Assembly (NCBI GenBank): GCA_019915015.1
Contig: JAHBBC010000006.1
Span: 124,001-188,000 of the forward strand
Length of the DNA: 64,000 nt
From: Auriscalpium vulgare
Lineage: Eukaryota > Basidiomycota > Agaricomycetes > Russulales > Auriscalpiaceae
Direction: 5' to 3'
Each line of letters starts with the position of its first letter. Within the stretch, counting starts at the first letter, position 1. Below the pieces are notes generated by a model, which was not told the DNA's origin, did not search any database, and was given only the letters and a program-made list of their open reading frames with translations. Positions 31,677-64,000 of this stretch are shown here, piece by piece. A program made the translations under genes and the position numbers.

Positions 31677-34534
31677 ATGTCCCTACACCCGAGGCGAGAG
31701 GAGATCGGGAACGCTATCCAGCAATCTCTCGAACTACTGGAGACCCTGAGCAAAGCTGTCCCTGTGCCATATGTCGAGGCTCTCGCTGGAACAGCGAGAA
31801 AGGTTGCTGATCTGATCAGGGTGAGGCGGTTCATCCGACTTCATCGCCCTTGTCCTTCTCTAATCCTGATGGCTTTTTTTTTCAGGGAGCTGAGAGTAAC
31901 AAGAAGGCCTCTTATGATCTTGCCGATAGAATTGTCCGCTTGGTCAATGCTGCAATTTCCGAACTTCAAGACGAAGACGCGCGTCTAGCTCCGGGGATGG
32001 AGGCTCGGGTCGCGGCTCTCAACGAGTTGAGTGCAATCGAATTCGTTACCTTTTTAGTCGCTTGAACGCTAGTGCAGGTCACTCCTCAAACTTCATGGAA
32101 AGATGCAAGCCATCGCTAAGACAACACTGTTCCGTCGTGTTGTCAATAAAAGCGCAGACGCAGACATGATAAAGGTTGCGTTGGACGAAGTCAACTACGC
32201 CATGCACTTATTCGGAGTGGGTTCTTTTTCTTGGTTGATTTTTCGGAGGATGACCTATAACATCAGGTGAAGGCAGAGATTGCATTTGGACTGGACGTCA
32301 AGTTTCTCCGTGAGTACCCTTTCTGTCGGAGTCGACAATTTGCTGACGCATACGCAGGTGACGACGCAACCCGTAAGCGCGTCCTCGAAGGAGCCGATTT
32401 TGGAGGCTGGCGCGGTGACCGTCGATGCCTCGCTGGTACCCGCACCCGATACATCGACCGTATCGTATCCTGGTCGCACGACGCCAGCGCGCCGCGGGTG
32501 TGCTACCTACGGGGCGTCGCCGGCGCAGGAAAGAGTTCTTTGTTGCACGAAATTGCAGCGCTAGCCCACGAGGAAGATCACGCTTATTCTTGTTTTTTCT
32601 TCAAACGCGACGACTCTGCCATGGCTTCATCCGTCGTGGAACTCCTTGCCTTTGGGCTCTCCTTCATTCCCGGTATGCACTCCTTCGTCACACGCGCTAT
32701 GGAACAAATGCACGATACTCGGGTCTTCCTGACTCTGGACAAGCAGTTTGATGCCTTCGTCGCCCAGCCGTTACTAAGGTTCTCTGCCACACATCCGGCT
32801 GAGCACGTCTTACTCATCATCGACGCCGTGGACGAATGTCCTCCAGACATTCGCGCCGACTTCCTGAAAGCGATTCGCATCGGCATCTCTCAACTTCCAC
32901 TCAACGTCAAGATCCTTCTGACGAGCCGACCGCAGCACGATATTAACTCTGTTATCAAGTCTCTGTGCCCCCTTTGGATGTACATCGACGTCCATCCAGG
33001 CTCGGATGACGGTGACGTCGAGCGTTTCCTCAGTCACGAGTTGCGCCGTATACGCGAGGTGAGGGGCATTGAAGACACTTGGTCGGATGAAGAGGTCGAC
33101 AACGATGCAGCCGCGCTTGCAGTCAAGTCTTGCGGGCTGTTCCAGTGGGCTCGAGTCACATGCACACTCCTTCTCAATCGTTTTCGTCCAAGAGACATTA
33201 TCGACCGCATTTTGAAGCTCGACGACGCCTATCGGTCGGAGACGAAACTCGACGCGCTTTACTCCGAAGCTCTGCTGATCGTCCTTCCCGAAATGGCGGA
33301 GGACCAGGAACTGCGTCTCATCTACCTACACGTCATAGGCGCCGTCCTATCTGCGAAGGAACCCCTGGGTGTAGTCGCACTTAGCGCCCTCTGCAACACC
33401 GCGGACGAGTCCGAGGCCGCCGCCCTGCTCGACGTTCGCCGATTCCTCGTTGATCTCGGCTGCGTCATCACAGTCGAAGACGGGAGTAAAGAGATTGTGC
33501 GCATCGCACATCCGTCGTTCTTCGACTACATCACGAATCCATCCCGATGCATGTCTCCATTTCTAGTCGACTATTCGATGGCGAGTTGTACCCTCGGCTC
33601 CCAGTGCCTCACCCTTATGTGCAGACGACTCAAGTACAATATTTGCGACACAGGGTATCCTAGTCCGCCAGTCGATCGACTCGCAGGCAGCGTTCTCCTG
33701 CGTGGCATACCAGATGCTTTGCGCTATTCATGCAACTTTGGGCTCATGCATGTGCTGGAAGGTATTCCTGGGCAGTCTCGCCTGGCCGAAGAGCTGGACA
33801 TCTTCCTATTTGCAAAGCTGCTGGAGTGGGTTGAAGTCATGTCTCTTTTAGGGTCTTTGGACAGAGCTATCGATGTCTTGCGTCGGCTGCGACAGAAAGA
33901 AACAGAGGTATGTCATAATCTACCCTCGCTTATGGCCGTCATTCATATTAATCGCTGTCTGAAGGTGCCCAATCAGGATGCCCCACGATCCCGGCTGCTG
34001 TACGACGCCATCCGATTTCTTGGCCAGTTCGGGTCTGCAGTCTCAACTAACTCCCTCGATGTTTATTTCTGCGCCTTGCCATTTACCCCGCAGAACACTC
34101 TACTCTATCGCACTTTTGCCCCAAGGTACTCGCAATTCATTCCCCACGTGACAGTGGGCAACATGGAAGAATGGCCCGAGGATCTATTCACATTACAATT
34201 CGACGAAATCAAGGTGCTTCGGCACCTCTCTTTCTCGAATGATGGGACACGCTTGTCCTGGCTTGCGGATGGAGTAGCCTACATGGTGTCTGCATCGACG
34301 GGTGCCTGGATCTGGAGTTTGCCATATTCAACACCTGTGCAAGCATTCCAGTGCGGCACGACCCAAATTGTGTTGCTTCATGGCAGACACAATCTTGTGA
34401 GGGACTTCAGTAGCGTGCCAGACCGGGCGGGGCTGGTATGTGCAGCCCGCCTGGTCATGGCGCGGACCCCGCCCGTACCGCGCGGACCCAGCGCGCCCAG
34501 CAATGCTGGAGCAGCTCGAGCCCGTGCGCTGTGA
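31677..34534 (+). CDS. NLR-type protein: MLKL/HeLo-like N-terminus plus NACHT NTPase, 3'-truncated
   Basis: Five exons join in frame to 880 residues (introns 31821-31885, 32026-32077, 32217-32266, 32310-32357). Residues 1-160 are helical (VPYVEALAGTARKVADLI, SYDLADRIVRLVNAAI) and resemble the MLKL-type four-helix domain common at the N-terminus of fungal NLRs, a membrane-targeting cell-death module in that family. A NACHT follows: P-loop GVAGAGKSS near 208-216, Walker B LLIIDAVDEC near 307-316, and sensor-like ILLTSRPQHD. A helical winged region and one WD40-like strand pair (LSFSNDGTRLSW) come next. The frame then runs into Pro/Ala-rich nonsense (from about 34437) encoded by GC-rich repeats. 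Expected WD40 or TPR sensors are missing, so the 3' part appears lost or displaced. An in-frame ATG at 31578 is a possible alternative start. Confidence 0.8.
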
Positions 34535-34558
34535 GGGGATCCCGCCATGACCAGGCGG
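34447..34558. repeat. 16-bp perfect inverted repeat at the NLR breakpoint
   Basis: CCGCCTGGTCATGGCG at 34447-34462 and its exact complement at 34543-34558 enclose about 80 bases. They sit exactly where the NLR homology stops, so they may be part of the end of an inserted element or simply a hairpin. Confidence 0.7.
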
Positions 34559-34626
34559 CTTCCACCAGACCCCTGCTGGTGTTCGCCCCGGCCGCGCGCC
34601 CGCCAGGACTGTGCGCGCCCGCCAAG

Positions 34627-34910
34627 TCTGTGCGGCACCCAGTCTCGGCGCGCTGTCCCCACGCCTATGTCGTCGCGCGGGTGCGTCGGTCGTCGTCGCC
34701 CAGCCCGCCAGGACTGTGCGCGCCCGCCAAGTCTGTGCGGCGCCCAGTCTCGGCGCGCTCTCCCCACGCCTACGTCGTCGATCCGACCCCGCGCGTTCGT
34801 GTGTTGTCGTCGAGCCCCCGCCTGGTCTGTGCGGCGCCCAGTCTCGGCGCACTGTCCCCACGCCTACGTCGTCGATCCAGCCCCGCGTGTTCGTCGCCGT
34901 CGCCCTCCCT
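34627..34910. repeat. Tandem repeat, about 100-bp period, three copies
   Basis: A block beginning GTCTGTGCGG and containing CAGTCTCGGCGC and CCCCACGCCTA recurs at 34627, 34731 and 34829. It is GC-rich and opens frames on both strands that are not genes. Confidence 0.8.
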
Positions 34911-36700: not shown

Positions 36701-36714
36701 CAGCAAATCTCCAT

Positions 36715-37116
36715 ATGTCGAAAGACATGCGCAAAGCGATCCGCGCCTTCCTTGAGGTTTATCGCCGTTCCTTTGGGTATACCGGGCTTCGCTGACCTAT
36801 ATCTTGCCAGGACGTGGACATGTACCCCGACTTCGTGCGCCGAGCGTGCGAGGGCCGCGTCGATGAAGTCCTTTGGCCACAGCAAGGCAGCAAGCTTGGC
36901 GTGAAGTGGGAGATCGGCGGCTCGAACAGCAGCCCGGTCCGCGTGCTCGTCTTGCGCGTGCGCCGTGGGTTCGCCCAAAACCGCGCGCTGAAGAGAGTTC
37001 CCGCGCGTCGCGGGACCATTACCATCAACTTCAACACCGACGCGCCGCCTACCCTCCAGCGCTTCGTCGAGCAATGGCAGGCCAAAATCCGCGCGCCCTC
37101 GCCTGAAGAGCACTGA
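36715..37116 (+). CDS. Small protein of unknown function next to the KDZ transposase
   Basis: Two exons (36715-36756 and 36811-37116) join across a clean 54-nt GT-AG intron into a 115-residue protein. It starts MSKDMRKAIRAFLE and continues DVDMYPDFVRRACEGRVDE, with a basic middle (LRVRRGFAQNRALKRVPARR) and an ITINFNTDAPPTLQRF stretch. I do not recognise the family. It is convergent with the KDZ transposase, whose stop lies 118 bp away, and is preceded by the minisatellite array. The intron restoring a tidy frame, and the lack of stops, support a real gene that travels with the transposase. Confidence 0.6.
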
Positions 37117-37234: not shown

Positions 37235-40200
37235 CTACGTTATCAGGTAAACAGGGCTTGATATCTTGTCTTTGAACGCCTCGTCTGCGCCCTCCAGCAG
37301 CCTTCTGTATCTGAACGCCTGCCTGCGGACCAGGGGCGTGTTAGCCGCCAGATACCAACGACTGCCGATTACACCCACCTTCTCGCGTACGCTGCGCGTC
37401 CTGGGTCGCCGTCATCGGACTTGTGCGCAGTGTCCAGCCAAGAATCCCGGAAATGCTCGAAGGTCCGACGGACCCGCCTCATTTCTTCGTTGACTAGCAG
37501 GCTCTCTTCCCACCACCTCTTGTACAGCGAAGTCCGCCGGAACCAGAGTGCCTTCAGAGCTGCAAGCCGACGCGAACGTGAGCTGAGCCGCCAAACGACG
37601 CACCAAACGACGTACCGCTTCTGGTCCACGTGCTCAAAGACTTGTTCTTGGACGTCAGCAGGTTCTCAAACTTGGACCAAATCCACGACGTCTGACGCCT
37701 ACTCTCTCCGAGCTTCGCATCCGCGGTGTACACCGTGAAACTCTTGATGTCCTCTTTCTTCAAACGCGGACAATCCTCGTCCGTCTCCGACATGCCGAGG
37801 GCGATGCGGGCCTGCCGGGCTCGCCGGTACGTCGTCGTGTCTTGGTCGATGGTGTCTCGCTTCCGGTTGTCCATGGTCTTCGTTCGCGTCGCCATGCCTT
37901 GAGTGTGCTTGCTCTCCTTCTTGTACAAGGTGAAGCTGTAGCTGCTGATGAGCCCTACCCGCAGCCCGTCGAGCGCGTCATTGCACTGCCCCTCCCGTAG
38001 ACCGCGCTCAATGTCTGCCGCCTCCGCCATCGAGACATGCTCTATGACCTCCTTGTTGAAGCACGACGGCAATAGCACGCGGCGGTCGCGTACGTTCCCC
38101 AGCATCTCCCCGTTCGTCACCTCCTTCCGCGCCCGCCGTGACCGCGCCGGCTTCGACTCCTCGTCCTGCGCCCGCTTGTCCTGCTTGCCATCGCCTCTGT
38201 CGTCCGTCGCATCCTGGCCAGCCACCTTCTTCGTCTGTTTTTCCTTTGTGCCCGCCTGCGTTCCCTCAACGTCCTTGCTCTGCTTGCGCTTGCCGCTGTC
38301 CCGACCGTCGTCTGCTTCATCCCCTGCAGCGGCCTGTTCGTCATCCAACATGAAGGCGCTCAACCGATCACCGGGTTTGCCCGATGTGGCAGCTATCAGG
38401 AGGGGCAGGATGTACATATCGTGGCGGAGCTTCCACGCGGCCATGTCCGCCATGTATTTCTTGTACTCCTCGGCGACGAACGGGTCCCCGACCATATGCT
38501 TCGTTCTCAGCCGCCGGATCAAGTTTGACCTGCGCCAACACGATTAGCAAAGGCACACGGGCATGTGACTCGCCGGGGCCGCTTACCTCCTTGCGTCGAG
38601 GTCCACGCCATCTGAAATGGCTCTCGCCAGACCCGCCGTCCCGGAGTTCTTGTCCACACTGGCAATGTGGACCGCCAACGCATCCGCTTTCGTCATCACT
38701 GCGACGCGCGAGGCCGTCAGCGACTCGCCAGCTAATCATGGGCGACGCCCGCCAACGCACCTGCCGACTTTTCGGGCTCGAATGGGTTGCTCATGTCCTT
38801 GTGCTTCTTGATGTTGAGGACGTCGGCTTGCCACGTTGCCAGCTCCTTCCTCCATTCGATTACCGACTCCTTCGCCTCCCGCTCCACGAGTTCGAGCTCC
38901 TCCCGCACCCACACCAACGAGTCCGCGGCCTCATCGTGCTTCCTCGCCAGGTATTTCGCTGCGAGAACGTCAGTACACGACGCGCGTAAGTTGAGCAGCA
39001 GTCCGCACCAATGCCGTGGACTCTTCGCGCATTCAGGTCAGAAAGCATCGCGTTGATGAAGTCGTGCCTGTTGCCCGGCGTCATCTCCCTCGTGGCATTC
39101 CCGATGGAATTCAGTATCGCCCAGAGGCGTTCCGCGGCCTCGCCGTCCGTCATAGCACACCAGGGCAGAAAGTGGAAGGAGAAGAAGATGCGGCACGACG
39201 CGCAATGGGCGGGGAGATGAAATTTTCCCACCGCCGCCAATGTCAACGGAATGCGGTACTTCTGGATTGACCCTAGATCGGCAGTGTTCTCCCGCATCCA
39301 CTTCAATCGATCCTCGAGGTTGATGCGGTACTGACAGTTTATGTCGTAGCCGGATACGTGCGTCGTCAAGTCCATGTAGGGCTGCAGCGCCGTCAGCATT
39401 ACGTAGTAGACGTTGGCGAATCTGGCGCACCAAAGGCCGTGTCAGCATCCCGAATCCTCCAACGCAGCCACGTACGCACCTTTCGCCCTTCTGTAGATCC
39501 ACAAGCCCACCCGCTAACGCGAACATGTGTCTCTGGCAGTAGAGACCGACGACGCCAGACACTTTCCCGGTATGCGCCCCGTATCCCAGCGCCCCGAACT
39601 CATGGCATGTCGTTTCCTGCGATTATCATTCATGAGCGCTTTGCGGCCATGCAACGCTGCAGATAGTCGCCGCTTACCTCTGGCTCCTTTCTGGGGGGCA
39701 CCCGCGGCAGGAACTTCGTGTAGTCCCCCTCGTGGGCAAAGTAAGCGGCGCCCATGGTCAGAGGCGTGTCCGCCATGTCCATGGGCTTGATCTTCTGATT
39801 CAAATGGAAATTGCCATCTGTGGCGTAGTACATGGCGTCCAGGAATCTGCCCAACAGGTTCAGCTCGAGTGCTCCAAGCGCCAAAAGAATCTAACACCCA
39901 CCGCAAAGCATCCTCTCGCGTCTGCCAGTGAGGATCCATGTTGATGCCAGGTTGCGGGCATGCCGGGCACAGCACAGCCAGAGAACCCGCGTTCATGTCG
40001 CGACGCGGCTGTTCATTCGCGCGTTTGGTGGCAGAAAGGTACGCAAACTCTCGCTGTGAGATCATGTACTCCCGGTATCGGTCCTGCGAACCAATTTCAA
40101 TGATGTGCTGACGCCGATATAGCCGTACCACTCACGTCCACGTCGTCGGGGTCAATGTTGTCGCTCGATCTCGCCAGGTACCTCATGAGATCGCCGGCGG

Positions 40201-41088
40201 GCGCCTGTGTTTGCAACGCCAGTAATTGAAAGTCCTTCATCACCGCCAAGGTGAACGCCGTCATCGGTCGCACCCAGGACGCCGGGAACAGGTCGCAATC
40301 CATGAGCTGATCGAAGTCGGACGCGATCATTCTGGCATTGCCCTGGATGCACGCGCAGAATTTCACTTGGATGCGTTCAATACCTCGCCCATGTACGATG
40401 GTCATCTCTCGAAGATCGCCCCTGGTTTTGAAGGTCTTGCATGGCAGGCCTCCATGCCCGAGATTGAGGACGAGGCCGAGCTTGGATAAGGTCGTTCGCT
40501 GCCAGAATCGCTCCGAGGGCGACCATTCCTCCACGCGGTGGAACGGCAGCCACCGATGTCCATCCAGAAGGCATTCGCGACAGAGAGGGCGGCGGTGCAA
40601 GCAGTCGACACAGCGGTGCGTAGCCACACCCTTGCTTTCCGCGGGGCAGCGCGCGCATTGCTTGCCTTCGGGGCCGACCTCGCGGCGGAATAGGGCGGCC
40701 TGTGCGTTTTGAGCGTACTGCCCAAGAAACTGCGTCATGCGCTCGTTGGGTTTCTGTAGCGACGCGCGACCTCTCAGCATTCAAACCGCGCAGTAGGTCC
40801 GTCAACAGTACGCACAATGGTGTTGCTTGGTGCCTTCCCATCCTCGCCCGCCTCCACGCTGTTGCCCTCCGCCTGCTCCTGGGTATTGCCTTCCGTGCCG
40901 GTGGTGTCAAATGGATTAGGAGAAGCAGCGCGTACGAATGCAGGTACGGTCGCGGGGGCGGCCGTCGACTTCTCCACTGGCGACGGGCGAGCATGTTTTG
41001 CAGAATGAAACCAGCTCTCCAGGCTGAAGCCCTGTTGGCCAGTCGGCTGCAGACGAGCAGCCTTGGGTTTTCTAGGAGTCCGCCGCAT
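37235..41088 (-). CDS. KDZ-family transposase with CxC2-like cysteine cluster
   Basis: Eleven exons with introns of 50-62 nt join in frame from the ATG at 41088 to the stop at 37235, giving 1094 residues. Introns: 40754-40815, 40084-40135, 39847-39901, 39617-39677, 39422-39479, 38959-39008, 38699-38760, 38530-38586, 37560-37615, 37323-37378. A cysteine cluster lies at about 124-165 (CARCP, HRCVDCLHRRPLCRECLLDGH). The transposase core follows: LCPACPQPGIN, YYATDGNFHLNQK, a HEFGALGYGAHTGKVSGVVG block, GYDINCQY (acidic residue near 486), TDGEAAERLW (near 552) and TREM (near 572). A Lys/Asp-rich insert and a helical C-terminus (RRARQARIALGMSE, LYKRWWEESLLVNEEMRRV) complete it. The family (Kyakuja-Dileera-Zisupton) uses an RNase-H-like fold for cut-and-paste transposition. 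The frame has no stops, so it may still be functional. Four copies of the shared motif lie directly upstream. Confidence 0.92.
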
Positions 41089-41706: not shown

Positions 41707-42751
41707 CTAACGAATGCGCGAAGTGGATGCGGCTTCCGCGGGCCGCGTAGAACTTCCCCCAGGATGGCCGTGCGCCCGCACAGGCGATCCGGCGCGGCGC
41801 GGAGGGGTCCTTGCGCGACGCGCTGAAGACCTGTCCCCGCGCCCAGGGGACGAGCTGCGCCTGGGTGAACCGTGACGTCGCGCCGGAGACAACTCCCGGC
41901 GGATGGGGGAGCGAGAGCGGTCCGGCGACCCATTGCGACGCTTGCGCGGCCTGCGACGCTTGGGTGCCTGCGCGCCGCCCGTGGGTGAGAGGGGCAACCC
42001 AGGGAGGGCTGCTGAGCCCATCTGCCCATGTAGCACAGGTGCCTCCGGGCCTGCCTTTTGCCCAGCAGGCGTCCAGAACTGCCCGCGCGCCGCGGCAGGG
42101 CCTGTCCAGTCCTCGGGCTCACCACCCATGCGCCGCCGCTGCTTCCACTCCTGCACTGACATCTTCCGGGTGGCAATCGATGGGGCGGCCGTCGACGGGG
42201 CGGCGGTCAAGGGAGCGGTCGTCGCGGTCGTCGCGGTCGTCGCGGTCGTCGCGGTCGTCGTGGTCGTCGCGGTCGTCGCGGTCGTCGCGGTCGTCGAAGG
42301 GGCTGCGCCCGGTGGGGCAACATTCGGGTCGTTGGAGGTACCTGTGTCGCAGGTTGCCGGCGCTGGGGCGACCACAGAGACCATCGCGAACCCTGCATTG
42401 CGATGAGCCGCGCAAGTCGGATTAATGAATGCACTACGCACCTGTCCCGTCGACGTCGCTATCGCCCCAGTAGTCGTCGTCCGAGTCGTGTGCGCCCTCC
42501 AGGAACTCGTCCAACACAAATGTGCCGTCTCCGCGTTTGGGGTAGTGCCGGAGAAAGACGTTGCGCTCGGAGTAGGTCCCTCTCTTTTTCTTGGAGATGA
42601 GCTCCGGCTCCGACGCTTCCGGGCCAGTCTTAGCACGCGAATCGAGCGTGTAGTAGCACCCGATGCCCTCGTAATTCGGCCCCTTTTGCGCTGGGCCATG
42701 GCCGGAACCGCGCCTTTGACGGCCCTTCTGCCAGCCTTGTCTCGCTTGCAT
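41707..42751 (-). CDS. Unknown protein with RS-rich tail (module gene H2)
   Basis: Two exons join across intron 42393-42441. The first reads YEGIGCYYTLDSRAKTG, SERNVFLRHYPKRGDGTF and an acidic end (HDSDDDYWGDSDVDG). The second holds a Thr/Ala low-complexity stretch from a 9-bp repeat (about 42215-42297), then MSVQEWKQRRRMGGEPEDW, and ends in an Arg/Ser-rich tail (RSRSPIRRELSPARR). From the ATG at 42751 the product is about 331 residues; the frame stays open a little further upstream and a CTGCAG there could be a splice acceptor, so the N-terminus is uncertain. An RS-rich basic tail suggests nuclear or nucleic-acid association, but that is inference. Family not recognised. Confidence 0.55.
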
Positions 42752-43361: not shown

Positions 43362-46300
43362 CTAGTCGGTACGCCTCCTTTTGGTAGGCTTTGTGAGGTC
43401 CCAAACCCTCACAAACTTGCCCCGAATCCACACCCACTCGGAGTGAAGGTCGTCGTCGTTGTCGCTGTCGCTGACGGTGCACGGGACGGCGTTGGACGTG
43501 GCCGACGAGGACGTGCCTGCGGTGGACGAGGACGCGGTGGTGGAGGACGTGCCTGCCCCCAATGCACGCGCGCCAAAAGCGGCGGAGGGCGTGGAGGACC
43601 TGGTCGCGGAGGACGTCGGCGCCCCAAACACTGGGGTGGACGGGCGACCGTTCGCGGGGACGGAGGACGTGGTGGCGGAGGACGTGCCTGCCCCCATTGC
43701 ACGCGCACCAAAAACGGCGGAGGGCGCGGCGGCGGGCGCGGGCACACGAGACCACGGGGCGGCGGACGTCGGCGCGGCGGATGAGAGGGCGGCGGGCGAT
43801 CGGGCATAGGTGCGGGCGGCGTCGGTCTTCTTGTCGAGCAGGGTCCGGCTGATGGAAGGCTCAGGAGATTGCTATTGACACACACAAACCATAGTACTCA
43901 CAGTCCAATCCCAGCCGCTCTGTCCGTAGCCTTACGCTCACGCCGTCCGACATCGGTCGCAGGCGGCGCATCGAGGGCACGTCTCTTAGATTGTGGTCCA
44001 GTCGACGAACCCTCCACGTGGTCGTCTTCGCCCGGCCTCTTGACACCACGTCCTTGCTGCGGTCCAGTCGACGAGCCCTCGCCACGCCCCATCGGCTGTA
44101 CACGCCCCCCGGCTGCGTTAGCCCAGATTCTCTCGATCGGCGGCGACCTCGTGGGCCTGAAGGCGCCTGGGACTACAAAACTCCACGGGCCCCTTCCCAG
44201 CTGATCCTCTCCGTAGAACGCCGTGTCGTGACACTGGAGCCGACGAGCCCGCAGAGCCTCCAAGTCGACCATCGGCGCGTCGTCACGACCGCGACCTCCG
44301 ACGACAGACGAGTACGGCGGCGGAGGGGAAATCGCCTGGGCGGCGTCAGCGCTCGTAGAACCGGCGGTGGCCCGCAGGGAAGGGGGAGGCGATGAAGGAG
44401 GAGGCGATTCGGTGGCGACAGTGGTGCCATCAGTGTCTTGGGTGGGGCTGTGGGGCTTAGTTTATTCACTATGTCCCTACAGTTGTAACAAGTGGGTGGT
44501 GTCATAGGCAGGCAGGATAGTGAAGTGCAAGTATAGGGCAGTATAGTGCACTATAGTGCACTATATTGCATATATCAGCACTATGGTGTCCTTGGATGCA
44601 CTATAGTAGTAGCATGACTGTAAGGACCATTGTATTTGTGCACCAATATAATGGGCTTTGAAAATGTTATAAATAATGGTGTAGATGCACAGGTGGAACT
44701 GCTATATAGATGTAATTCAGCAGAATATATCTGGTTAATGGTAGAGAGCTGTAGGGCAATCACTGTCCAATGGATCCCATGGGTTTATGTACTATAGTGA
44801 ATCAATAATATATTACAGAAATGCTGGGATATATGCACCTTCTCTCCTTTCAAATGAGCTCTATAAATTCGAATAATATTACAGCATGCGGCTTAGTATA
44901 GTGCATATGTAACCTGAATTTACCAGATTATAGGGGGTCATTTCTGAGGAGTTGTGCAGTGCACACTGTATCAGATATTCATCTACTATAGTGATGTTAT
45001 ACTCTTTAAAGCTTTCTTAATTTGTTATGGGATGACTGGACATTCATAAATCATGACGAAAAAGGTGGGCATATCTACCACGCATGCCACTGCTGTCTGA
45101 ATTTATCATAATATTTAAGGCTAATGGCAAGCCGCACCAATGCATATATACTTATACACTATAGTGTTATTTAGCTCGTTTCTATTCTCAAACTTTTTCA
45201 GCACTGAATAGCTCCTCAATACTTGGGGAAACAAATCCCTAAATATTCCAGAGCACTGTTACACCATGCCCCTTCCATCCCTGAAACTTTTGTATTCTTG
45301 CATACAATTGGTATATAGTACCGTACTTCTGATCCTTTGATACAGCCTAAATGATCCATATGTCCCTGTCCCATCTGCAGATACATCCAAGCATATGTGT
45401 GAACTGCAATGATTGTTTATTTTTCAATGAGCCATGATCCATGAAGCTTACTTGAGCACAAGCTCATCCTCTGTAAAAGAAATAGACATTTATATCCATA
45501 TGCCTGATCATAAACTTGCTGGGAGTGGGCCGACGCATAGCGCGGCAGTACGATTCCAGGTGCAATACGGGGTTCAATAATCTTCTCAAATTGGAAGAAT
45601 ATGTAACAGAGACTACTTTATTTGACATCTTTGCCCTGCGGTTTGAGCTCAAGAGCAATGACATCATTTCGGGTTTTAAATGCAATTTAATAGCCGGAAT
45701 GACGTCATCATCTCTTGCTAGCAATCGTGCTGTTCTATACGCTCTGCTGTTCTATACGCTCAATCCTAGTAATATTACTGTGTGTGTGGAATGCTTTATA
45801 GGCAACAATATGTGTACAGTGAGTGTATCATCCCGAGTAGACGTGAGGCTGGTGAGGGAGCTGAAAGCGCGAGTGGACAAAGCGTGGGAGTGAATTTCCA
45901 AAAAAGGCGACACAGACTGTCGTTGCATGGGTCGAAAAAAAGCTGGATGTAGATGACATAAGCAACGATTCATAGGAATCGTAACTGGATCACCCTGGGA
46001 CAAGGATACCTCAGACTTTACAGGCTGTATGAGAGTGGAACTACAGCACTTTCTGCCAACTCTAGGTAGAATTCCCATATTTTGAGCATTGGGTGGGGCA
46101 TGGTCTGTGAATGCTCTATAATATCTGTGGATAATATTGACCAAGTACTGGAGAGCTATTGGACATATCATATGCTTTTGTGGCCAACCAATTAGATCAC
46201 CACTATAGTGCACAAACATATATGCCTTGGAGTGGCTCACCAATGGCTTCAGATATTATGATAAATTCAGACAGCAGTGGCATGCGCGGTAGATATGCCT

Positions 46301-51129: not shown

Positions 51130-54100
51130 CTACTGATAATGACGAGACAATGAGCTAGGAGCGACGAGGGGGAACGATGGTAGGCGACCCGACACGGAAT
51201 AGAACTGGAAGCAGTAGAAACGGGCGATCTCTGCCTCGAAAAGATCCTGCGTGGTGCCCTCCGGTGTTTCCGGCAGCTTTCCGTTCGCGGCAGGCCAAGA
51301 ATTCAGCACACGCGCCCATCGCGTGAAGGCCCCAAGCCGCCTGCCGTCCGTAAGACTCTCAATCCCGCACATCACTTCACGGCGATCCCACATCGGCCGC
51401 ACCTTGCCGTCGCCCTCCCAGATCAGCATGACCTCCTCCTCGCGCGCCGTGCCCCAGCCCGACTCCTCGGAGTACGCAGCAGGATCCATGATGCGGTCGA
51501 GTGCCATGAGCTCGAGACGGAAATTCATGCAAGACAACTCCCACGTCACTTCCATCCAAACCCGCGTGTCCAAATCTGCCTGCGCGCGGGCAAGCCCCCG
51601 CGACCCCCAGAGTGGTTGAAACTCTTCCCGGTAGGGTTCAAAGCCGCCGTGCACACCGAAGCGGACGTTGACGTCGATGCGGTCGGCCGCGCGCCGCTGC
51701 GTGCGCCGGTCCGGGGCCCGCTGCGGGCCGGCGGCCGTGCCTGTTTTGGGTGGGGGCGGAGGCAGCTTGCCGATGTCGACGGACGACGACTGCGGCCGAA
51801 TGTCACGGTCGGCGGGGATGTCGATCCGGTAGTAGCGACCCTCCAGAGCTATGCGCCATTGGCCAGCCGTGAGAACCACCCTTCCCCCCTCCGGCGGCCT
51901 GACGGTTTGCGCGATGCACCATGGCCGGATTCTTAACCAATTGTGAATTCTGCCGCCCTGGATGCTGCCTTCATTGAAGAAAAGATGAATTGGAGGGAGG
52001 TGGTAAAGCTGCGGCCGGTGCGGATGTGCTACTGCGAGGGCAGGGTCTCGCGCGATGACAGCGGCCAAGAAGGCACACTCCGCGGTGAGCCATGCAGGCT
52101 TCGGTTCCGCCTTCGCCAAACGCTCAGACCCGGTCTTCTGAGCGCGCCCGACAGGCGGGCGAGGTGCTAGCATGAGGATAGCGATTGAGGTCAAATCGCG
52201 GCAACCCGCATGAACAGGAACGCTGACTTACCTGAACCTGAGGAAGGGCCCGGACCGTGCTGCGTGGCCGTCGCCTCCATCGCCGCTTCCTCCGCCTTCG
52301 CCGCTTCGAGGCGATCTTCCGCTCCCAGTGCGACCTTTGCGCTGACAAGCGGCTGACTGCTGAGGCTGAACCGAAAAAGCTGCTCGCTGAACCCTACCAT
52401 CATGGCGTCCAGACTCACCCCGTCTTCCCACGGAGGCGCCCTCCTGTACTTGTTACCCTCGATCATGAACTGCTTGTTGCTCAGGTACTTCGACACGGGT
52501 GTGGGGCGCACGGGTATGAGAACGGTCGTCGCGTCGCTGATGGTGTAGGGCTCCCGCACCAGCCAGACCGGGACTCCAACACGAAACATCGTCTCCGCGA
52601 GCAGCACCTTCTCCGTGATGATACCGCGGACGGGCAGGCAGTCGACGGCGTTGAAGCGCGGATCCTCGACCCTCGGCTTGACGACGAGCATGTAGGTAAC
52701 CCAGGCCCTGAGCTCGAGGAGGATGCGCTGGCTCTCCCGGAACCACTGGAGGACCTCGAACGACGCCATCGGCTCCCCGGCCAGCACACCGCTCACGGAC
52801 TTCGCCTTCGAGAGGAGCCTCTCAGCGAACTGCAGAGCGGGGTCGAGCTTGTCGCCGTCCAATGGGCGCTTAGACTGCTTGGGGAGTTCCGCGGCGATCT
52901 TGGCAACCATCTCGTTCACTTCAGAGTGAGCCTGCTGCAGGCGGAGCTTGACATCTTGAGCGAGGCACCCTATCGTCGCGCTGCTCGTGCGGCTCCATTC
53001 TTCGAGGAGCTTTGGCGACCACTGCATCCATGGCACGGCCGTGTCTTTGAATTGGACTGGCGAACGCCTGTCGTCGCAGACGGGAAGTGGAAGCAGTGAT
53101 GCGCTGACCCGGGTCATGACCTCGGTCATGACCCGTCACGAATCCTGACCCCAAGGTCATGACCGGGGTCAAAGGTCAACGGCAACTGATGCCAAGAGAC
53201 CGGGCTTGACAACGCGGTCAGTTATCCACGTCCGTGAGCGCCGAGTCACACGTGTGACCAAGAGTGACGCCGTGTACTACCTCTATTTTACTTACTCACA
53301 GGAAGGCTCAATATCTGGACAATGTTTGCGTAGTCTTATAATTATCATAAGAACATGCCTGCCAAGTTTTGTCCATTTAAACGACGATGCCGCGCCTGCA
53401 GAACAGGCCTTATAGGGTGTGACATTGAGCGCTTCATAAGCCCGTGCGGACGCAATGATAAGTTGGCACTCGACAAGAATATTTGTGTTTACTATATAGA
53501 CAGGGGATAGACTCCATGTAATCAAACCGGTGCAGCGGCAGGAGGATAGCAGACCTCCCTAGCAAGCTCCTCATGAAAGTCAACCTCTCGTCGCAAACCT
53601 TCCTCACCAGACTTCCAGGACTTCAAGAGGATGTCGAGCGAGGAATCCACTCGCAGGCCTGTGGTAGGATCTGGCAGCGAGAACAAATTCTCGAGCTGAA
53701 GATCAGTCGGAGAATATCCAAGCTCGGACGCAACAGCCGTCGACGCCGACGAGGAAGCGGCAGCCTCTGCTTCAGCCACTGCTGTAGCTGTAGCCACTAA
53801 CTCATCCGCCATCTCGTCAAATAGCCCTGGCGTGTTTGTGTCGCCGCCTTCTTCGACACTGTCCTCAGGCTCGCTGGTGTCTGGAGGAGCAGTTGGCGCA
53901 GTAGCCGAAACAGCAGCACTGTGAGTGGCTGTGGTGGTGGCAGGGGGAAGGAAACCTTCTTGAATATTGAGCATGTCGATGTCGTCAGCTAGAGCGCGCT
54001 TTGCACGTTTTGCGCGTGGGTAGTCCTTCTCGATCTGGTGCTTGACGAGAACAGTCTTCCGAACGCGCTCCGGCTCCATGCGATTTCGTAGCTTCGAGTG

Positions 54101-55416
54101 AACGATACCAAAGGCGCTGAACAAACGTTCCGTGCCGGCAGAGTCGGGGACAATGCTCAGGACGAGAAGAGCAAGTCGGACGAGGCCATTTGCGCCGGTC
54201 GTCACACCGCTGCGATCGTGTTCACGCCAGAGATGCAGAAGGTTGACGCTCTGACCCTGGGGCATTGGCGCAGATAAGTAAACCTATCCTCAAATGCAGA
54301 GGGGCAACAGTAACGCACCTGGGAATCATATAGCACCTGACGCAGTGAGTCCTTCCACAGTGCCATTCCCAATCTTGTATCTTATTTGGAGGTCTAGTAG
54401 GGCTCGGGACCGCACCCAAGTCTCGACGTTTTCGCATCGAGAAAGGTGCTTGTACAGATCGATGGGCTTCGCGCAGAAAGCCGTCTGATGTTGGTGAGGA
54501 CTGTGATATGTATGTAAGTCTCTGTAAACATTGACTAATTCTGAAGGCAACTCACGAGCTTCTCGGATCACAGTCTCCGTGCGTCGACCCATCTCCGGTC
54601 CCTGCAACTCCTGCTTCATTATATCCCGTATTTTCCCCAGCAAGCAGGCTTCACAGCGCGCCGCAGGAAAGTATCTGTTGGTCTTGTATTTCTCAGTGCT
54701 GATGTGAAAATTCGAGCGTGCCCACTGATGGACGGTGACTGGCCCCATCTTCGTGGTGTGACGGGCGCCCGGGGATGAATGAGAGGGTATTCTCGAGGTT
54801 GTTACTGGGCTCGTCGACCAAATCCAACGTCGGCGAGGCTTTTCGGCTCGTTTGACAGCCAGTATATAATTTGTGCAATAAAGGAAGTTATATTACAGAG
54901 CCAAGCTAGATCTACGGTCCCATATCCTGCGCTTGACCGTTGACCGGAGTCATGACCCTAGCTGACCCCCAGTCATGACCCTGACTGCGGTCAAAGGTCA
55001 TGACCCGGGTCAGGTTCCGACGCATCACTGAGTGGAAGCGCCGGGTTCAATGGGGCAGCACAGCTATGAGGATACATGGCGTCGTAGACCTGGGGCCACT
55101 TCATGAGCTCGAATGGCCCGAGCATGCCGTCGGCGAAGTAACTGAAGGTACGATGCTCGCGGTGGGTGGGTACCTCGGGAATCCATTTTGTATTCGGACT
55201 GGAGACGCACACGGAGCCCCGCCCACTATCCCAGCATGCGAGGACTTCGCAATCCATCGCGCGAAGGACATAGGTGACACCCCGGGCGGCGCTTCGCTGC
55301 GCCGCAGCGATGACGTCCTGATACGTGAACGTGGTGGAGGCTGTCTTGACGCTGCTGTCGTTGCCATTTTTGCTACTGCTGGCCTTCGCGGATGTTTTCA
55401 GGGTGTCGGGGGCCAT
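51130..55416 (-). CDS. Module gene C: unknown protein interrupted by a hAT element
   Basis: The ATG at 55416 opens TFTYQDVIAAAQRSAARGV and a compact N-terminal region ending NPALPL. There the hAT element (53094-55030) intervenes. With one copy of the 8-bp duplication AGTGGAAG the frame continues PVCDDRRSPVQFKDTAVPW, then VREPYTISDATTVLIPVRP and KYLSNKQFMIEGNKYRRAPPW. An intron at 52167-52231 joins SSGSG to APRPPVGRA, and the protein ends after YRIDIPADRDIRPQ and FGVHGGFEPYREEFQPLW at 51130. The total is 758 residues in one frame. I do not recognise the family. Motif copies and a promoter-like block lie directly upstream at 55456-55850. As it stands the gene is broken. Confidence 0.65.
53094..55030 (-). 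mobile_element. hAT-type DNA transposon, 1937 bp, with 8-bp target duplication
   Basis: The ends are CAGTGATGCG and CGCATCACTG. Just inside each lies an inverted block CTGACCCGGGTCATGACC, with several more GGTCATGACC palindromes within about 80 bases. AGTGGAAG is duplicated at 53086-53093 and 55031-55038. The element carries only the C-terminal part of a hAT transposase, so it is probably non-autonomous. It interrupts gene C. Confidence 0.9.
53522..54748 (-). pseudogene. hAT transposase C-terminal remnant
   Basis: The minus-strand frame contains the hAT dimerisation region (LALLVLSIVPDSAGTERLFS, AFGIVHSKLRNRM), followed by an Ala/Thr-rich acidic tail to the stop at 53522. Upstream, KDSLRQVLYDSQ joins to GQSVNLLHLWREHDR across an intron, and a further piece reads KTNRYFPAA and ETVIREARELPSELVNVY to about 54748. 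The BED finger and the RNase-H-like catalytic core are missing and there is a frame change near 54370. It is a truncated remnant. Confidence 0.7.
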
Positions 55417-55455
55417 GTTGGGTTTGGGAGCGCCGAACGCTTATCGGGGGTGTCG

Positions 55456-57048: not shown

Positions 57049-57523
57049 AAGGGTCGCCCGTCATTGGTACGTTGGTGCCCTTGTGCGTCTTGGCGTCTCA
57101 TTGAGTTTTCTCATCAGTCCTCGCCGTTTATTCCACACTGCTGCCCCTGCACGGATACCCCGCAGTCCCCCTAGCCTACGAGTCTCTCTGTCGTTACTGC
57201 ACGCGAAATACCATTCCTTCATGTGAAGATATGTGATAGTAAGCTGGGCGGCGTCTCCTCTGCGTGCCGGATGCGCGCCTGTTCGGGCCTCGGGGCACTA
57301 AGTCCACACACGGGCGTTGAGAGGCATCGCCGCTTGGACTCTGCGGACTCTGCGGGCAAGGTGCGCTCAATGTGGAAGTATGTTTTCCTCAATCCGCTTA
57401 TAGACAGAGCTTAAAAGCGACCCTCCAGTCCGCCTCGTGTCTTCCTGCAGGCTGCCTCCAACCACCATCTGCCCACCATCTGCCCACCATCTACCCACCG
57501 TCCGCCAAGCAGTCTACCAAGCT

Positions 57524-58097
57524 ATGTCTCAACAGTACGGCGTCATCGAGCCCCCTACGGGGCCCATGGTTCGTGGCATGAATCTCGACCCTGCCGCGAG
57601 ACCGCTAACTGCCATTTTCTAGTTCTTTTCGCTCACCCCCGTTTCCCAACTCGTCCATGATCCCCCGCGCAACGGTGACGGCTCGGCCACCCTCCTTCCC
57701 CCCCCTGCGGACGTGTATGATCGCAAAGATGTGGGGCGGCTCGTCACGAGCCTCCTGCACATCGTCTACACCCTGCTGGACAATGCAGAGCGTGACGACG
57801 TGACGCGCGAGGCCAATATACGTGTGGCCATAACAGCACGCGAGCGGATCGCTCGCGTCGAAATCGAGAACGTGGTCGTCGAGGAGATCGAAGACCCCGA
57901 GGTCGTGGTCGCTGGGTGCGTACATGCTGCGGCACATGCACGTTCCCCTTCGGCTGACACGTTTACAGTGGCTTCGAAATAGAGGAAGTCACGAACGAGG
58001 AGATGGAAGACCCCAACGTCGTGCTCGCCGGGTGCGTACATGCTGCGGCACCGCCAGGGTCCCCTTCGGCTGACATGTTTGCAGCGACGGCCAGTAG
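57524..58097 (+). CDS. Module gene E: small protein with a duplicated exon-intron unit
   Basis: Exons 57524-57568, 57623-57915, 57969-58031 and 58085-58097 join in frame into 137 residues: MSQQYGVIEPPTGPM, FFSLTPVSQLVHDPPRNGDG, a helical VGRLVTSLLHIVYTLLDNAE, and repeated acidic ends EEIEDPEVVVAG and EEMEDPNVVLAG. The two introns after these acidic blocks are both 53 nt and nearly identical in sequence (GTGCGTACATGCTGCGGCA), so an exon plus intron was duplicated as a unit. The product is small and acidic, with unknown function. It is convergent with the TET/JBP gene. Confidence 0.55.
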
Positions 58098-58391
58098 TCG
58101 CGGTCATCACATGACACAAAGACGGCTCAGCTCGTCCATTCTCGGCGGCTCCCTTGCTCTGCTACAATTGTACGATATCTTTGTTTGATGATGTTCGTGA
58201 TGCGCCGGGATCCATTGTACGTTCGCTATGTGTGTGTGGCTGTCGCTCTAGTTCTCGCAATGCATTGGATGACTTGACCCTCGAGTGAGATGGCTATGCA
58301 CGCACGCGTCCGCTCTCCGGTACTCGGCAAGCCGCACGCAATAAGTTTCATCGAGAGTACGCAAGATATATTGTAGAAAGTACACAATGTT

Positions 58392-61300
58392 CTACTTGGG
58401 TGGAAGAGATGGATAAGCGGCACGAAGCCCCTCGAACGTAGTGAACAGCGGGTGGGGGACTCCGTAATCATCAAGTATGTCCTTGTGCGTAAAATGCACT
58501 AGGCACAATCGCTGGCCTCCGGCGCTCCAGGGGCTGTGGGGCTTAGTTTATTCACTATGTCCCTACAGTTGTAACAAGTGGGTGGTGTTATAGGCAGATA
58601 GGATAGTGAAGTGCAAGTATAGGGCAGTATAGTGCACTCTAGTGCATATATCAGTACTATAGTGTCCTTGGATGCACTATAGTAGTAGCATGACTGTAAG
58701 GACCATTGTATTTTTGCACCAATATAATGGGCTTTGAAAATGTTATAAATAATGGTGTAGATGCACAGGTGGAACTGCTATATAAAGGTAATTTAGCAGA
58801 ATATATCTGGCTAACGGTAGAGAGCTGTAGGGCAATCACTGGCCAATGGATCCCATGGGTTTATGTACTATAGTGAATCAATAATATATTACAGAAATGC
58901 TGGGATATATGCACCTTCTCTCCTTTCAAATGAGCTCTATAAATTCGGATAATATTACAGCATGTGGCTTAGTAGAGTGCATATGTGACCTGAATTTACC
59001 AGAATAGAGGGGGTCAGTTCTGAGGAGTTGTGCAGTCCACACTGTATCAGATATTCATCTACTATAGTGATGTTATACTCTTTAAAGCTTTCTTAATTTG
59101 TTATGGGATGACTGGGCATTCATAAATGATGACAAAAAGGGTGAGCATATGTACTACACATGCCACTGCTGTCAGAATTTATCATAATATCTGAAGCCAT
59201 TGGTGAGCCACACCAAGGCATATAGATTTGTGCACTATAGTGGTGATCTAATTGGTTGGCCACAAAAGCATATGATGTGTCCAATAGCTCTCCAGTACTT
59301 GGTCAATATAATCAGAGATATCATAGAGCATTCACAGACCATGCCCCACCCAATGCTCAAAATATGGGAATTCTATCTAGAGTTGGCAGAAAGTGCCGTA
59401 CTTCCACTCTCATACAGCCTGTAATGTCTGAGGTATCCTTGTCCCAGGGTGATCCAGTTTATGATCAGGCATATGAATATAAATGGCTATTTCTTTTACA
59501 GAGGATGAGCTTGTGCTCAAGTAAGCTTCATGGATCATGGCTCATTGAAAAAGAAATAATCAGTTCAGTTCACACATATGCTTGGATAGATGGGACAGGG
59601 ACATATGGATCATTTAGGCTGTATCAAAGGATCAGAAGTATGGTACTATATACCAAGTGCATGCAAGGACACAAAACTTTCAGGGATGGAAGGGGCATGG
59701 TGTAATAGTGCTCTGGAATATCTAGGGATTTGTTTCCCCAAGTATTGAGGAGCTATTCAGTGCTGAAAAAGTTTGAGGATAGAAGCAAGCTAAATAACAC
59801 TATAGTGTATAAGTATATATGCATTGGTGTGGCTTGCCATTAGTCTTAAATATTATGATAAATTCAGACAGCAGTGGCATGCGTGGTACATATGCTCACC
59901 ATTTTCTTCATGGTTTATGAATGCCCAGTCATCCCATAACAAATTAAGAAAGCTTTAAAGAGTATAATATCACTATAGTAGATGAATATCTGATACAGTG
60001 TGCACTGCACAACTCCTCAGAAATGACCCCCTCTATTCTGGTAAATTCAGGTCACATATGCACTCTACTAAGCCACATGCTGTAATATTATCCGAATTTA
60101 TAGAGCTCATTTGAAAGGAGAGAAGGTGCATATATCCCAGCATTTCTGTAATATATTATTGATTCACTATAGTACATAAACCCATGGAATCCATTGGCCA
60201 GTGATTGCCCTACAGCTCTCTACCGTTAGCCAGATATATTCTGCTAAATTACCTCTATATAGCAGTTCCACCTGTGCATCTACACCATTATTTATAACAT
60301 TTTCAAAGCCCATTATATTGATGCAAAAATACAATGGTCCTTACAGTCATGCTACTACTATAGTGCATCCAAGGACACTATAGTACTGATATATGCACTA
60401 GAGTGCACTATACTGCCCTATACTTGCACTTCACTATCCTATCTGCCTATGACACCACCCACTTGTTACAACTGTAGGGACATAGTGCACTAAACTACTC
60501 CCCAGTGTTGGCTCCAGGGCATGACCTTATGAGGTACAATGCAGCCCACGAGGAGAAGGAGCGTACCGGATTCGTATCCCAAGCTCGTACGAAAGATGGG
60601 GAGGTCGAGGGTGCAACCATGGTACGGACCGACCGTCAACAGCGCGTCAACCCCAGCTAGACAACCCTTGGCGTCGCGATGGCTCGGTGTTTCGCGGTTG
60701 TAGATGATGGAAATGCCCTGGAATGATGACGACCAGCCGTTGGCGTGCACAGCAGTCTCCGTACCCTGGCGGAGGTGCTCCATGGCCTTGGAATACGCAC
60801 GGTGCGCATCGGGAGTGGCAATCTCGATCAAATGCTCGATCCGCATCTGAAAGATCTGGATCTGCGAAAGCAGGTGCTGTGTGGCAGCAGCGTGTGGCTT
60901 CGTGCCCGCCAACGAACCGCTGAACCGCAGCGGTTCATTCTGTGCCCGTCATTCAGCTGCTGTGGCCTGTGACAAAAGCAAGCGACGCACCGGTTTTCCT
61001 ATCTCCTTCCAGCCGGGTGAGATATGGTGGCACCCGACCTTGTTGTCTCCTTCACCGCGGTAGCCCTGCTTCGCGCCGCGCCCCAGCGTATCGGCCGACA
61101 TTTGGGGCGGGAATTTGTCCGCAAACTCATCGAGATACGTCGCATGGGCCCGCTTGAGAAGAGCACAAGGGTTAGCCAAGTGCAGGAGTAGCAGGGGATG
61201 GGAACGCACGCTGACAGAGGGCGAGAGGTATCCAGGGAAGTGGAACGCGATGAGCAAGCCGTTCCGGTCGAAAAAGGACCTGGGCTGCCCGTCCGTGAAA

Positions 61301-61820
61301 CTTTGCGGCTTAAGGTGGGCAAGCGGGCCGTCCAGGAGGTCCGCGACTCCTTCGTCGTTCAGCTCGCTTGCAACGGCGGCTAACTCGCGCAGGTCCACAT
61401 GGATAGTGACTGGGAAGTCCGTCAGATATACGAACGACATGACAACGTTCGGAGTGAACACACCTGCGTTGTCGAGCGCTGTCCGCAACAGCTTTTCGTT
61501 CCTGTCGTGGAAGCCCTTGAAAGCTTTGCCGATGCCGCGGTTCTTGAGCCGAGGAGTCGCGTCTACATGCGATTCATGAGGCGAGTGATAAGATAGTACG
61601 TCATAATCGACGCACCGGCAGTGTTGGGGCGCCTGAAAGACACCCCCGATTTTCGCGGCCGTCCGGAGTTGCGTGACCCGCCAGCAAGTGGTGGCAAACG
61701 CGCAGGCAATGGCGCCCGAAGAACACCAGGGACAGACTCGGGCACGACGGCGGGCAGACGAAGTCGCCCCCGAGAGGTGCTCTTCCTGCTAGAGGCGGCG
61801 GCACTGCTGTGTCCCGTCAT
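58392..61820 (-). CDS. TET/JBP-family 2OG-Fe(II) dioxygenase, interrupted by a Mutator-like element
   Basis: The ATG at 61820 starts exon 1 (61616-61820). Introns 61563-61615 and 60940-60990 are canonical. Exon 3 runs into the element at 58533-60510 and the last 132 bases are on its far side. With one copy of the 9-bp duplication GCTCCAGGG the frame is continuous, giving 445 residues. The double-stranded beta-helix oxygenase signature is complete: YNRETPSHRDAKG (HxD iron ligands, near 60677), VPHKV (distal His) and, beyond the insertion, GGQRLCLVHF (Arg for 2-oxoglutarate). Upstream are RLKNRGIGKAFKGFHDRNEK and HVDLRELAAV. This family oxidises 5-methyl-pyrimidines in DNA (5mC to 5hmC and beyond, or thymine in JBP); fungal members are known to co-occur with KDZ transposons. 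As it stands the insertion separates the Arg from the rest, so the encoded enzyme should be inactive. Confidence 0.85.
58533..60510. mobile_element. Mutator-like element with about 0.7-kb terminal inverted repeats, copy 2
   Basis: 1978 bp, with the same ends as copy 1 (GCTGTGGGGCTTAG and CCCCAGTGTTG). The inverted arms cover about 58533-59235 and 59803-60510. The 9-bp duplication GCTCCAGGG lies at 58524-58532 and 60511-60519. The centre (about 570 bp) has a 149-codon frame (59256-59705) that I do not recognise and that copy 1 does not keep intact. No transposase, so non-autonomous. This copy preserves the empty site of the 470-bp insertion. Confidence 0.88.
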
Positions 61821-61898
61821 CCAGCGCACCAGATAGGACCTACGAGTTGAGGAAAAGCGAGATGGGGCAACAGTGCGATGGGGGAACGGTGATGTCGA

Positions 61899-62020
61899 CG
61901 CGCGCCTGACAAGCGCGGGGCAGAGTGCACGCGCGCCTGAGAAGCGCGGGCGGGGGCTCTGGTGGGGGGCAGGGAGGGTTGGATGGCGGGCGGAGGTCAG
62001 GGATACGAGGAGCGGCGAGT
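61899..62020 (-). promoter_or_regulatory. Two module motifs upstream of the TET/JBP gene
   Basis: Copies at about 61899-61919 and 61931-61950, with the following GGGTTGGATGGCGGGCGGAG block, match the upstream regions of genes H2 and C. They end about 80 bases before the TET/JBP start codon and are oriented as in the other genes. Confidence 0.6.
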
Positions 62021-62650: not shown

Positions 62651-62652
62651 GC

Positions 62653-63305
62653 CCCGCGTCTGTCAGACGTGCGTGGACGCTACAATGCCCCGCGTTTTTC
62701 AGGCGCGCGTGGCACATACCCGACAAGCATCGCGCCAAGCATCGCCCACGATCCTGTCCGATCGGACCCTATCAAAGACTCCCTCGGCCATGCCAATACT
62801 CCCTCGACGCATCACGCACGATCTTGTGCCCGCCCCGCGTTTGTCAGACGTGCGTGGACGGGTTTCCTACAATGCCCCGCGCTTTTCAGGCGCGCGCGCA
62901 TACGGTGGATCATCTCGGTGAAATCTCTGCGATGACGGTGCGTAGACTTCATTCTCATGCTCGCGCGCCTGCTGACTTCCATACCCGTACCAGCTCCCCT
63001 TCCTCGCGCTCCTCGCGCCTAGGTATCCGTAGTGCGGGATATGCGTTTGGTACTCCCTCGACGCAGCACGCACGATCTTGTGCCCGCCCCGCGTTTGTCA
63101 GACGTGCGTGGACGGGTTTCCTACAATGCCCCGCGTTCGCTTCTCAGGCGCGCGAGCATACGGTGGATCATCTCGGTGGAATCTCTGCGACGACGGTGCG
63201 TAGACTTCATTCTCATGATCGCGCGCCTGCTGACTTCCATACCGGTACCAGCTCCCCTTCCTCGCGCTCCTCGCGCCTAGGTATCCGTAGTGCGGGATAT
63301 GCGTT
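62653..63305 (+). promoter_or_regulatory. Six module motifs, partly in a 254-bp tandem duplication, upstream of gene F
   Basis: Motifs in plus orientation lie near 62653, 62690, 62834, 62876, 63087 and 63130. A segment of about 254 bp beginning CCCTCGACGCA is repeated (62801 and 63055). The next gene on this strand starts at 63570, so these match the motif-before-gene pattern of the module. Confidence 0.55.
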
Positions 63306-63569
63306 GCGCATGCCGGTGGCCGATTCAGTCAAGCCGAATGCTGCTTGCGAGGGCGCAGCGACTTCTCCGTGCCTCGCCCCCAGTTCTCCGTGCCTCGCCC
63401 CCAGCATCGAGGCCAAGCCGCATATCCTAACAGGTGCGTTTCTAGTCGCTGCTGGTGGCCCGTCTCAGCTATATAATGCAGGACAAGCTGCTCATCCCCC
63501 GCCTCCCATCCACCTCAGCATATCGCTGCCCTACTATTGTACGCAAGTCCTCGCGAAGTCGCCACGAAA

Positions 63570-64000
63570 ATGTCGCTTAGTACGGAGACTTATACCTGGC
63601 CGGACGAGGTACGTGGCGTATGCGTGCGTCGTATTGTCTTTTCTGACGCCATTCCAGCAGATGCCAACAATCGTGTACGCTCCGCCCTGGGCCACCCAGA
63701 TCACCGACCAGATCCACCCCCCGCCTTACTACCTCGACGAGCATCGCACTTTCAACCTGGCGCAGTTGGAACGGGTGGCCGCCATGAAGACGATGGCCAA
63801 CAGGGAGCGCTTGATTGTCGGAGACGATGCTTTCGTCAAGAAGCACAACTTGCAGTCCCTTTACGCCTTCCAGTCCGACCGCCAGCCGTTGATGCCTCCG
63901 GAGCCTGGGATGGCCGGCATCATGATGGGCCTCATCAGCCCGGACAAACAATTCCCGCCCGTCGAGACCGTCATTGCGAGGCTCGGGGCCAATCCGAACG
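63570..64000 (+). CDS. Module gene F: unknown protein, 5' part only
   Basis: The ATG at 63570 begins MSLSTETYTWPDE; an intron (63609-63657 or -63660) leads to MPTIVYAPPWATQITDQIHP, then EHRTFNLAQLERVAAMKTMA, a LIVGDDAFVKKHNLQSLYAF stretch and PPEPGMAGIMMGLISPDKQF. The frame remains open at the window end. I do not recognise the family. Single-frame coding with a canonical intron supports a real gene; motif copies lie upstream. Confidence 0.55.
   Translation, partial: MSLSTETYTWPDEVRGVCVRRIVFSDAIPADANNRVRSALGHPDHRPDPPPALLPRRASHFQPGAVGTGGRHEDDGQQGALDCRRRCFRQEAQLAVPLRLPVRPPAVDASGAWDGRHHDGPHQPGQTIPARRDRHCEARGQSE

Follow-up and report, generated by a model that had tools for sequence, protein, structure and literature searches.

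In the genome of the mushroom Auriscalpium vulgare, we identified a large DNA transposon in which a KDZ transposase gene travels with a gene for a TET/JBP-type DNA dioxygenase and with several genes of unknown families. It occupies the right part of a 64,000-nucleotide stretch (C6:124001-188000, where C-numbers denote contigs; hereafter the window), and the search for related sequences covered 51.6 Mb in 96 contigs. We are quite confident that this element is a DNA transposon, about 30 kb in size, that has long terminal inverted repeats (TIRs), likely moves with its genes as one cut-and-paste unit and is flanked by 7-bp target-site duplications (TSDs). The first-pass annotation of the window had already proposed one large cargo-bearing KDZ element with the TET gene travelling along, and the TIRs, the TSDs, the copies elsewhere and the restored empty site described below bear this out.

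The part of the element within the window spans positions 34399 to 64000, the left boundary being the very base at which similarity to all four other copies (on C18, C53, C10 and C8) begins. The whole copy covers C6:158399-196038, that is 37,640 bp, and ends at window coordinate 72038, about 8 kb beyond the window; the limits first given for the block, 34440 to 64000, therefore had to be revised at both ends. The left TIR of about 160 bp (34399-34566, plus strand) has its right partner at about 71879-72038, and the two are identical at 150 of 155 positions; in the C10 copy, the TIR measures 155 bp with 97.4% identity. The termini read 5'-GAGGG..AGTAC-3'. Immediately outside them lies the direct repeat ATCTTGT, at 34392-34398 on the left and at 72039-72045, outside the window, on the right. 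Reading copy ends by eye, we found a distinct 7-bp TSD in every one of the four copies for which the two ends could be read: ATCTTGT (C6), GGAACGG (C18), TTTACCT (C10) and TCTCGGG (C8). The TSD of the C53 copy is unreadable because the contig stops exactly at the left terminus and the right part is cut within the TET gene. An interval of 37.6 kb that lies between inverted repeats of 97% identity, is enclosed by an exact 7-bp direct repeat and has closely matching copies at four further loci is not a chance arrangement. The KDZ transposase would be the enzyme acting on the TIRs.

The four further copies differ in completeness. The C10 copy (C10:100502-130437, 29,936 bp; its sequence was assembled from overlapping loci) is complete and the least interrupted of the long ones, the C18 copy (C18:859650-904169) includes an insert of 14.4 kb, and the shorter C8 copy (C8:932082-948183, 16.1 kb) lies in the middle of its contig, 932 kb into 1.8 Mb. 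Outside the first 1.77 kb, which are rich in repeats, 66 substitutions in 28,221 aligned bases separate the C10 and C6 copies. Over the transposase region, gaps aside, the differences from the C10 copy amount to 21 in 7,624 bases for C6, 8 in 7,699 for C53, 7 in 7,690 for C18 and 29 in 7,597 for C8.

We also asked what the window copy had interrupted. To its left, positions 32261-34398 (plus strand) encode NPHP3_N (E 6.4e-17) and NACHT (E 8.8e-8) domains, and to its right, at L059:8047-9741, lies a WD40-like part matched by WD40 propeller models, every one of them below its curated cut-off. Joining the two flanks with a single copy of the TSD gives a frame of 1,278 codons that stays open across the junction. 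Therefore, the element interrupts one NACHT-WD40 gene, which we take to belong to a class of NLR-like receptors and which looks like an immune receptor. The same result bears on the view that the long copies are segmental duplications, produced for example by subtelomeric exchange, in which the KDZ gene is incidental. The copies are indeed long and near-identical, and those on C6, C10 and C18 sit 100-215 kb from a contig end. This view is nonetheless already contradicted, and in our judgement highly improbable, because the similarity ends at the inverted repeats, the flanks differ, the 7-bp TSDs of the readable sites are all distinct, the C8 copy is mid-contig and the joined flanks restore the interrupted gene.

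From the left, the gene order is S (plus), KDZ, X, A, B, C and TET (all minus), DUF6697 and an ABC-transporter fragment (both plus), followed by a relic of the KDZ C-terminus and an inverted relative of S. The letters S, X, A, B and C refer to our own gene models, which come from a simple self-written ab initio predictor and are approximate; for KDZ, B and C, annotated proteins of A. vulgare lend the models support. The transposase gene (37235-41088, minus strand) starts with an ATG at 41088 and stops near 37235, as the earlier reading of this frame had it, and it encodes a KDZ transposase with a CxC2 cluster (PF18758, E 7.5e-41; PF18803, E 1.8e-18). Its best match among A. vulgare proteins reaches 98% identity over 53% of the query, and a 961-aa homologue with 68% identity, P0010, aligns to it piecewise (residues 1-572 and 601-961). 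The part of the KDZ domain that was listed for each copy (positions 98-217 of the 217 in the profile) is open in all five.

The TET/JBP dioxygenase gene lies at about 58395-61788 on the minus strand. In the C10 copy, the TET match (C10:111107-111541) falls inside the TSD-bounded unit and the catalytic exon is open. The exons of this copy match PF12851 (E 9.7e-16), and they resemble CcTet of Coprinopsis cinerea (structures 7vpn and 7w5p; E 2.1e-16 against 7vpn), the motifs HRD, PHKV and GQR aligning to HRD, LHGV and GER of CcTet. We assume that these residues form the HxD...H metal triad and the arginine that binds 2-oxoglutarate. Unlike CcTet, this predicted enzyme is borne on a transposon, and in the window copy an insertion interrupts its gene. 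There, a palindromic element of 1.98 kb (58533-60519) lies between PHKVM and PWSAGGQR, so that HxD and His are separated from Arg; since this nested insertion splits the catalytic exon, the TET gene of the window copy is not intact. The original call of a TET/JBP enzyme with HxD, His and Arg signatures thus stands as to the domain and its residues, while the span assigned to it contains a nested element.

Two other long copies are also broken in TET. In C18, the insertion of 14.4 kb (C18:879551-893983, with a 5-bp overlap) sits at window position 61322, in the upstream open frame of TET, and by the length of the duplication it is perhaps a long terminal repeat (LTR) retrotransposon. The break in the C53 gene falls near window position 60677, within the HRD codons, and the other strand of the sequence past it weakly matches a Copia-type reverse transcriptase (RVT_2, E 5.1e-5 over 27 residues, below cut-off). 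Separately, about 1 kb downstream of TET (window 57220-58305) is present in the C6 and C53 copies and missing from C10 (57260-58305) and C18 (57220-58183), with different breakpoints.

As TET is broken in three of the four long copies, not every copy needs it, and the gene may be decaying or selected against. One explanation takes this further: nothing but the transposase, along with S, X, A and B, would matter, and C, TET, DUF6697 and the ABC piece would be passengers acquired once and now decaying. The compact C8 copy is in line with this: it has KDZ, A and B, two termini and a separate TSD, and no match to C, TET, DUF6697 or ABC was found among the matches listed for it. The ABC piece, moreover, is only a partial gene. 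On the contrary, gene C and TET occur together, with open frames, in all six copies of a diverged second family (see below), and Kojima 2025 (PMC12730594) describes the coding regions of fungal transposon-borne TET genes as mostly undisrupted. We regard the passenger explanation as rather unlikely. In the reading favoured here, TET would oxidise 5-methylcytosine on the element and thereby ease its silencing. TET-carrying transposons being known, the benefit of TET to the element is a question on which this one genome bears as a natural comparison: its 16-kb form lacks TET and its 30-kb form has it, three copies have differently broken TET genes, and the TET frame is open in the six copies of another family.

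This second family accounts for 6 of the 17 Tet_JBP matches in the genome; its six loci give the same score and have frames of equal length. In each of its copies, a KDZ match lies about 4.3 kb from TET and a relative of gene C (35% identity) about 1.6 kb away on the other side, the frames of TET and of this relative being open. Gene C itself (51130-55440, minus strand; split by an insert at 53095-55039) gave no Pfam or NCBIfam match above cut-off, and it points to a protein family accompanying KDZ and TET that these profiles do not recognise. An annotated A. vulgare protein matches it at 92% over 69% of the query. The homologues of B and C in this species have consecutive locus tags, each on a contig of 15,833 bp, and a gene C homologue, P0003, is assigned, like P0010, to a contig of 58,797 bp, which suggests, short of proof, that P0003 and P0010 share one contig.

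Its recurrence beside KDZ and TET in the second family suggests that gene C probably assists KDZ-TET elements as an accessory factor. Genome-wide, 67 gene C matches, grouped by eye, fall into 27 loci: 4 in the family of the window element, 6 in the second family and 17 others. The first-pass annotation would have been contradicted by unknown genes standing in conserved synteny away from any KDZ transposase. For gene C this is partly the case: 10 of the 27 loci have KDZ and TET, and the 17 others have none among the KDZ matches listed. The absence of KDZ near these 17 is not firm, considering that the list holds part of 168 matches and that the searches score best candidates only. One of the 17 sits 15 kb from a second-family KDZ gene, and some have identical frame lengths; those that do may be mobile by other means. 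For genes A and B there is no such case: all 19 matches of A and all 16 of B lie inside the five copies of the window element family.

We also looked at how the large form could have arisen. The right 2.4 kb of the element mirror parts of its left 2.95 kb, in short pieces of 72-100% identity, inside the 96% terminal repeat, and this mirrored end includes both the KDZ C-terminal relic and the relative of gene S, which is inverted. The likely source of the right end is the left end of a related element, copied in inverted orientation, so that the large form is probably composite. The right arm also contains host DNA: a segment of 1,794 bp (C6:191249-193042) matches C19:662648-664439 at 97% DNA identity in a single alignment and encodes ABC membrane and ATPase domains as part of a gene, with a protein match of 96%. 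That the DNA alignment is continuous points to capture from DNA and not by way of RNA. Another piece, of 0.8 kb, matches C2:1437226-1438022 at 81%. In this case, a KDZ element has taken along an identifiable part of a host gene and likely moves several genes together.

A fuller scenario would start from two related KDZ ends that came to lie, inverted relative to each other, on either side of host and mobile genes, the transposase then moving the whole interval. The mirrored ends, the host segment between them and the compact C8 form, which has a diverged right end (84% over about 320 bp beside the terminus), speak for it. However, subterminal similarity may persist because the transposase binds there, and the change between the C8 and the long form may have gone either way, so that we see the arguments for and against this scenario as evenly balanced. 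Given that C8 has no listed C, TET, DUF6697 or ABC and a diverged right end, the large form may have grown from the compact one, or the reverse. Shorter forms seem to exist as well: at least 20 inverted TIR pairs, spanning 0.3-3.2 kb, were counted by eye, and no KDZ match lies inside them among the matches listed, which suggests that these are short non-autonomous relatives.

Large cargo-bearing elements are known in other fungi as Starships, giant elements of the Pezizomycotina with variable cargo, mobilised by a tyrosine recombinase. The window element is like them large, fungal and cargo-bearing, and unlike them it has a KDZ transposase, TIRs and 7-bp TSDs and resides in a basidiomycete. 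No match to DUF3435, presumably the tyrosine-recombinase captain of Starships, was found among the Pfam matches of the gene pieces scanned, a subset of the open reading frames (ORFs). It is conceivable, though we put it forward tentatively and as something we would not yet expect to hold in full, that mushrooms harbour a KDZ-driven counterpart of Starships, with inverted KDZ ends, replaceable cargo (TET, host pieces and new families), gene C as a core partner, and nested elements that repeatedly knock out TET in young copies.

Among published KDZ elements, the closest are the TET+ Kyakuja elements of Agaricomycetes, for which Kojima 2025 (PMC12730594) describes a KDZ transposase with TET and 7-bp TSDs in five orders including Russulales. 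The window element is like them in having KDZ and TET/JBP genes in one TSD-bounded unit with a 7-bp TSD; the pairing of KDZ and TET with such a TSD is therefore already known. The two Laccaria bicolor Kyakuja families described there have 5'-CA..TG-3' ends and no TIRs. KDZ1-KDZ3 of Cryptococcus neoformans are, in the sections available of PMC12810828, mobile elements of about 9-11 kb with a CxC1 transposase, TIRs of 139-241 bp and TSDs of 8 bp (KDZ1) or 4-8 bp (KDZ2 and KDZ3). The window element shares with them a KDZ transposase and long TIRs, and differs by its CxC2 cluster, 7-bp TSDs and TET, those sections mentioning no TET cargo. Searches of mainly open-access literature, supplements excluded, listed no description of gene C, of KDZ elements with such cargo, or of Kyakuja elements in which TET goes with long TIRs. 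The idea that the helper set was undescribed as a unit fits this literature as regards the set and not its KDZ-TET core, which is in print. New here are the long TIRs, the multi-gene cargo, the apparently composite ends, gene C and the finding that different events have disrupted TET in three of the four long copies.

Several observations weigh against the proposed interpretation. The GAGGG..AGTAC ends, the TIRs of about 160 bp and the several extra genes set the element apart from the published Laccaria Kyakuja families, and its placement in Kyakuja is indicated by TSD length and CcTet similarity only. The gene models depend on a predictor of our own making, and three long copies either sit on a small contig or have a contig end at a distance of 100-215 kb. 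Seventeen gene C loci have no KDZ of their own within 20 kb among the KDZ matches listed. TET is disrupted by three different events (C6, C18 and C53), and the comparison of this breakage with the open KDZ stretch in five of five copies involves small numbers and was made after the fact. Finally, the evidence on methylation is mixed. CpG transitions make up 24 of the 66 C10-C6 substitutions, with CpG bases accounting for 22% of a 7.7-kb part, a pattern consistent with, and not proof of, methylation of the element, the substrate that TET would need. On the other side, they account for only 5 of 24 singletons in a four-copy comparison of the transposase part, and the observed/expected (o/e) CpG ratio of the element, about 1.1, equals that of most of its surroundings, which youth alone explains.

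The remaining cargo genes are less well defined. Gene S (36715-37116, plus strand) is a small gene of two exons, known from its sequence and translations, with its diverged inverted relative near the right end; the Pfam scan gave no match for it. Gene X (41707-42751, minus strand) is an approximate ab initio model, its start taken from the sequence, for a basic Ser/Arg-rich protein with no Pfam match above cut-off. Gene A (43898-48368, minus strand), which may be one or two genes, is split by an insert at 44447-46931. Gene B (49014-50808, minus strand) also lacks a Pfam match above cut-off and has an A. vulgare homologue, P0129, with 79% identity across the full query. The DUF6697-domain gene (63670-64000, plus strand; PF20411, E 1.5e-9) is represented in the window by its start only and continues past the edge; among 18 genome matches to this domain, three are in the window element family and none in the second six-copy family. 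Several unknown genes do lie between KDZ and TET, as first annotated, with the correction that A and C are split by inserts.

Three nested insertions account for these interruptions. Insertion 1 (44447-46931, including one copy of a 9-bp TSD; splits A) belongs to a palindromic family with an extra piece of 467 bp, and is absent from the matching site in C18, C10, C53 and C8. Insertion 2 (53095-55039, splits C) is a hAT-like fragment with a 9-bp TSD and a match to PF05699 (E 5.2e-6) in an ORF at 53525-54283; the matching sites in C10, C18 and C53 lack it. The match concerns the C-terminal dimerisation region, and part of this insertion matches C19:558634-559880 at 99%. Insertion 3 is the element in the TET catalytic exon, and its span likewise includes one copy of a 9-bp TSD. 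Insertions 3 (58533-60511) and 1 (44447-46915) represent a family of about 2 kb that is palindromic end to end, matching its own minus strand at 85%, with dozens of listed copies.

The CpG o/e ratio falls to 0.08 in insertion 3 and 0.36 in insertion 1, and is 0.96 in insertion 2. Outside the element, two TPR-CHAT frames at 5713-9300 (1,195 codons) and 20205-23921 (1,238 codons) have CpG o/e ratios of 0.16 and 0.12 against about 1.1 around them, as if they had long been methylated yet kept open.

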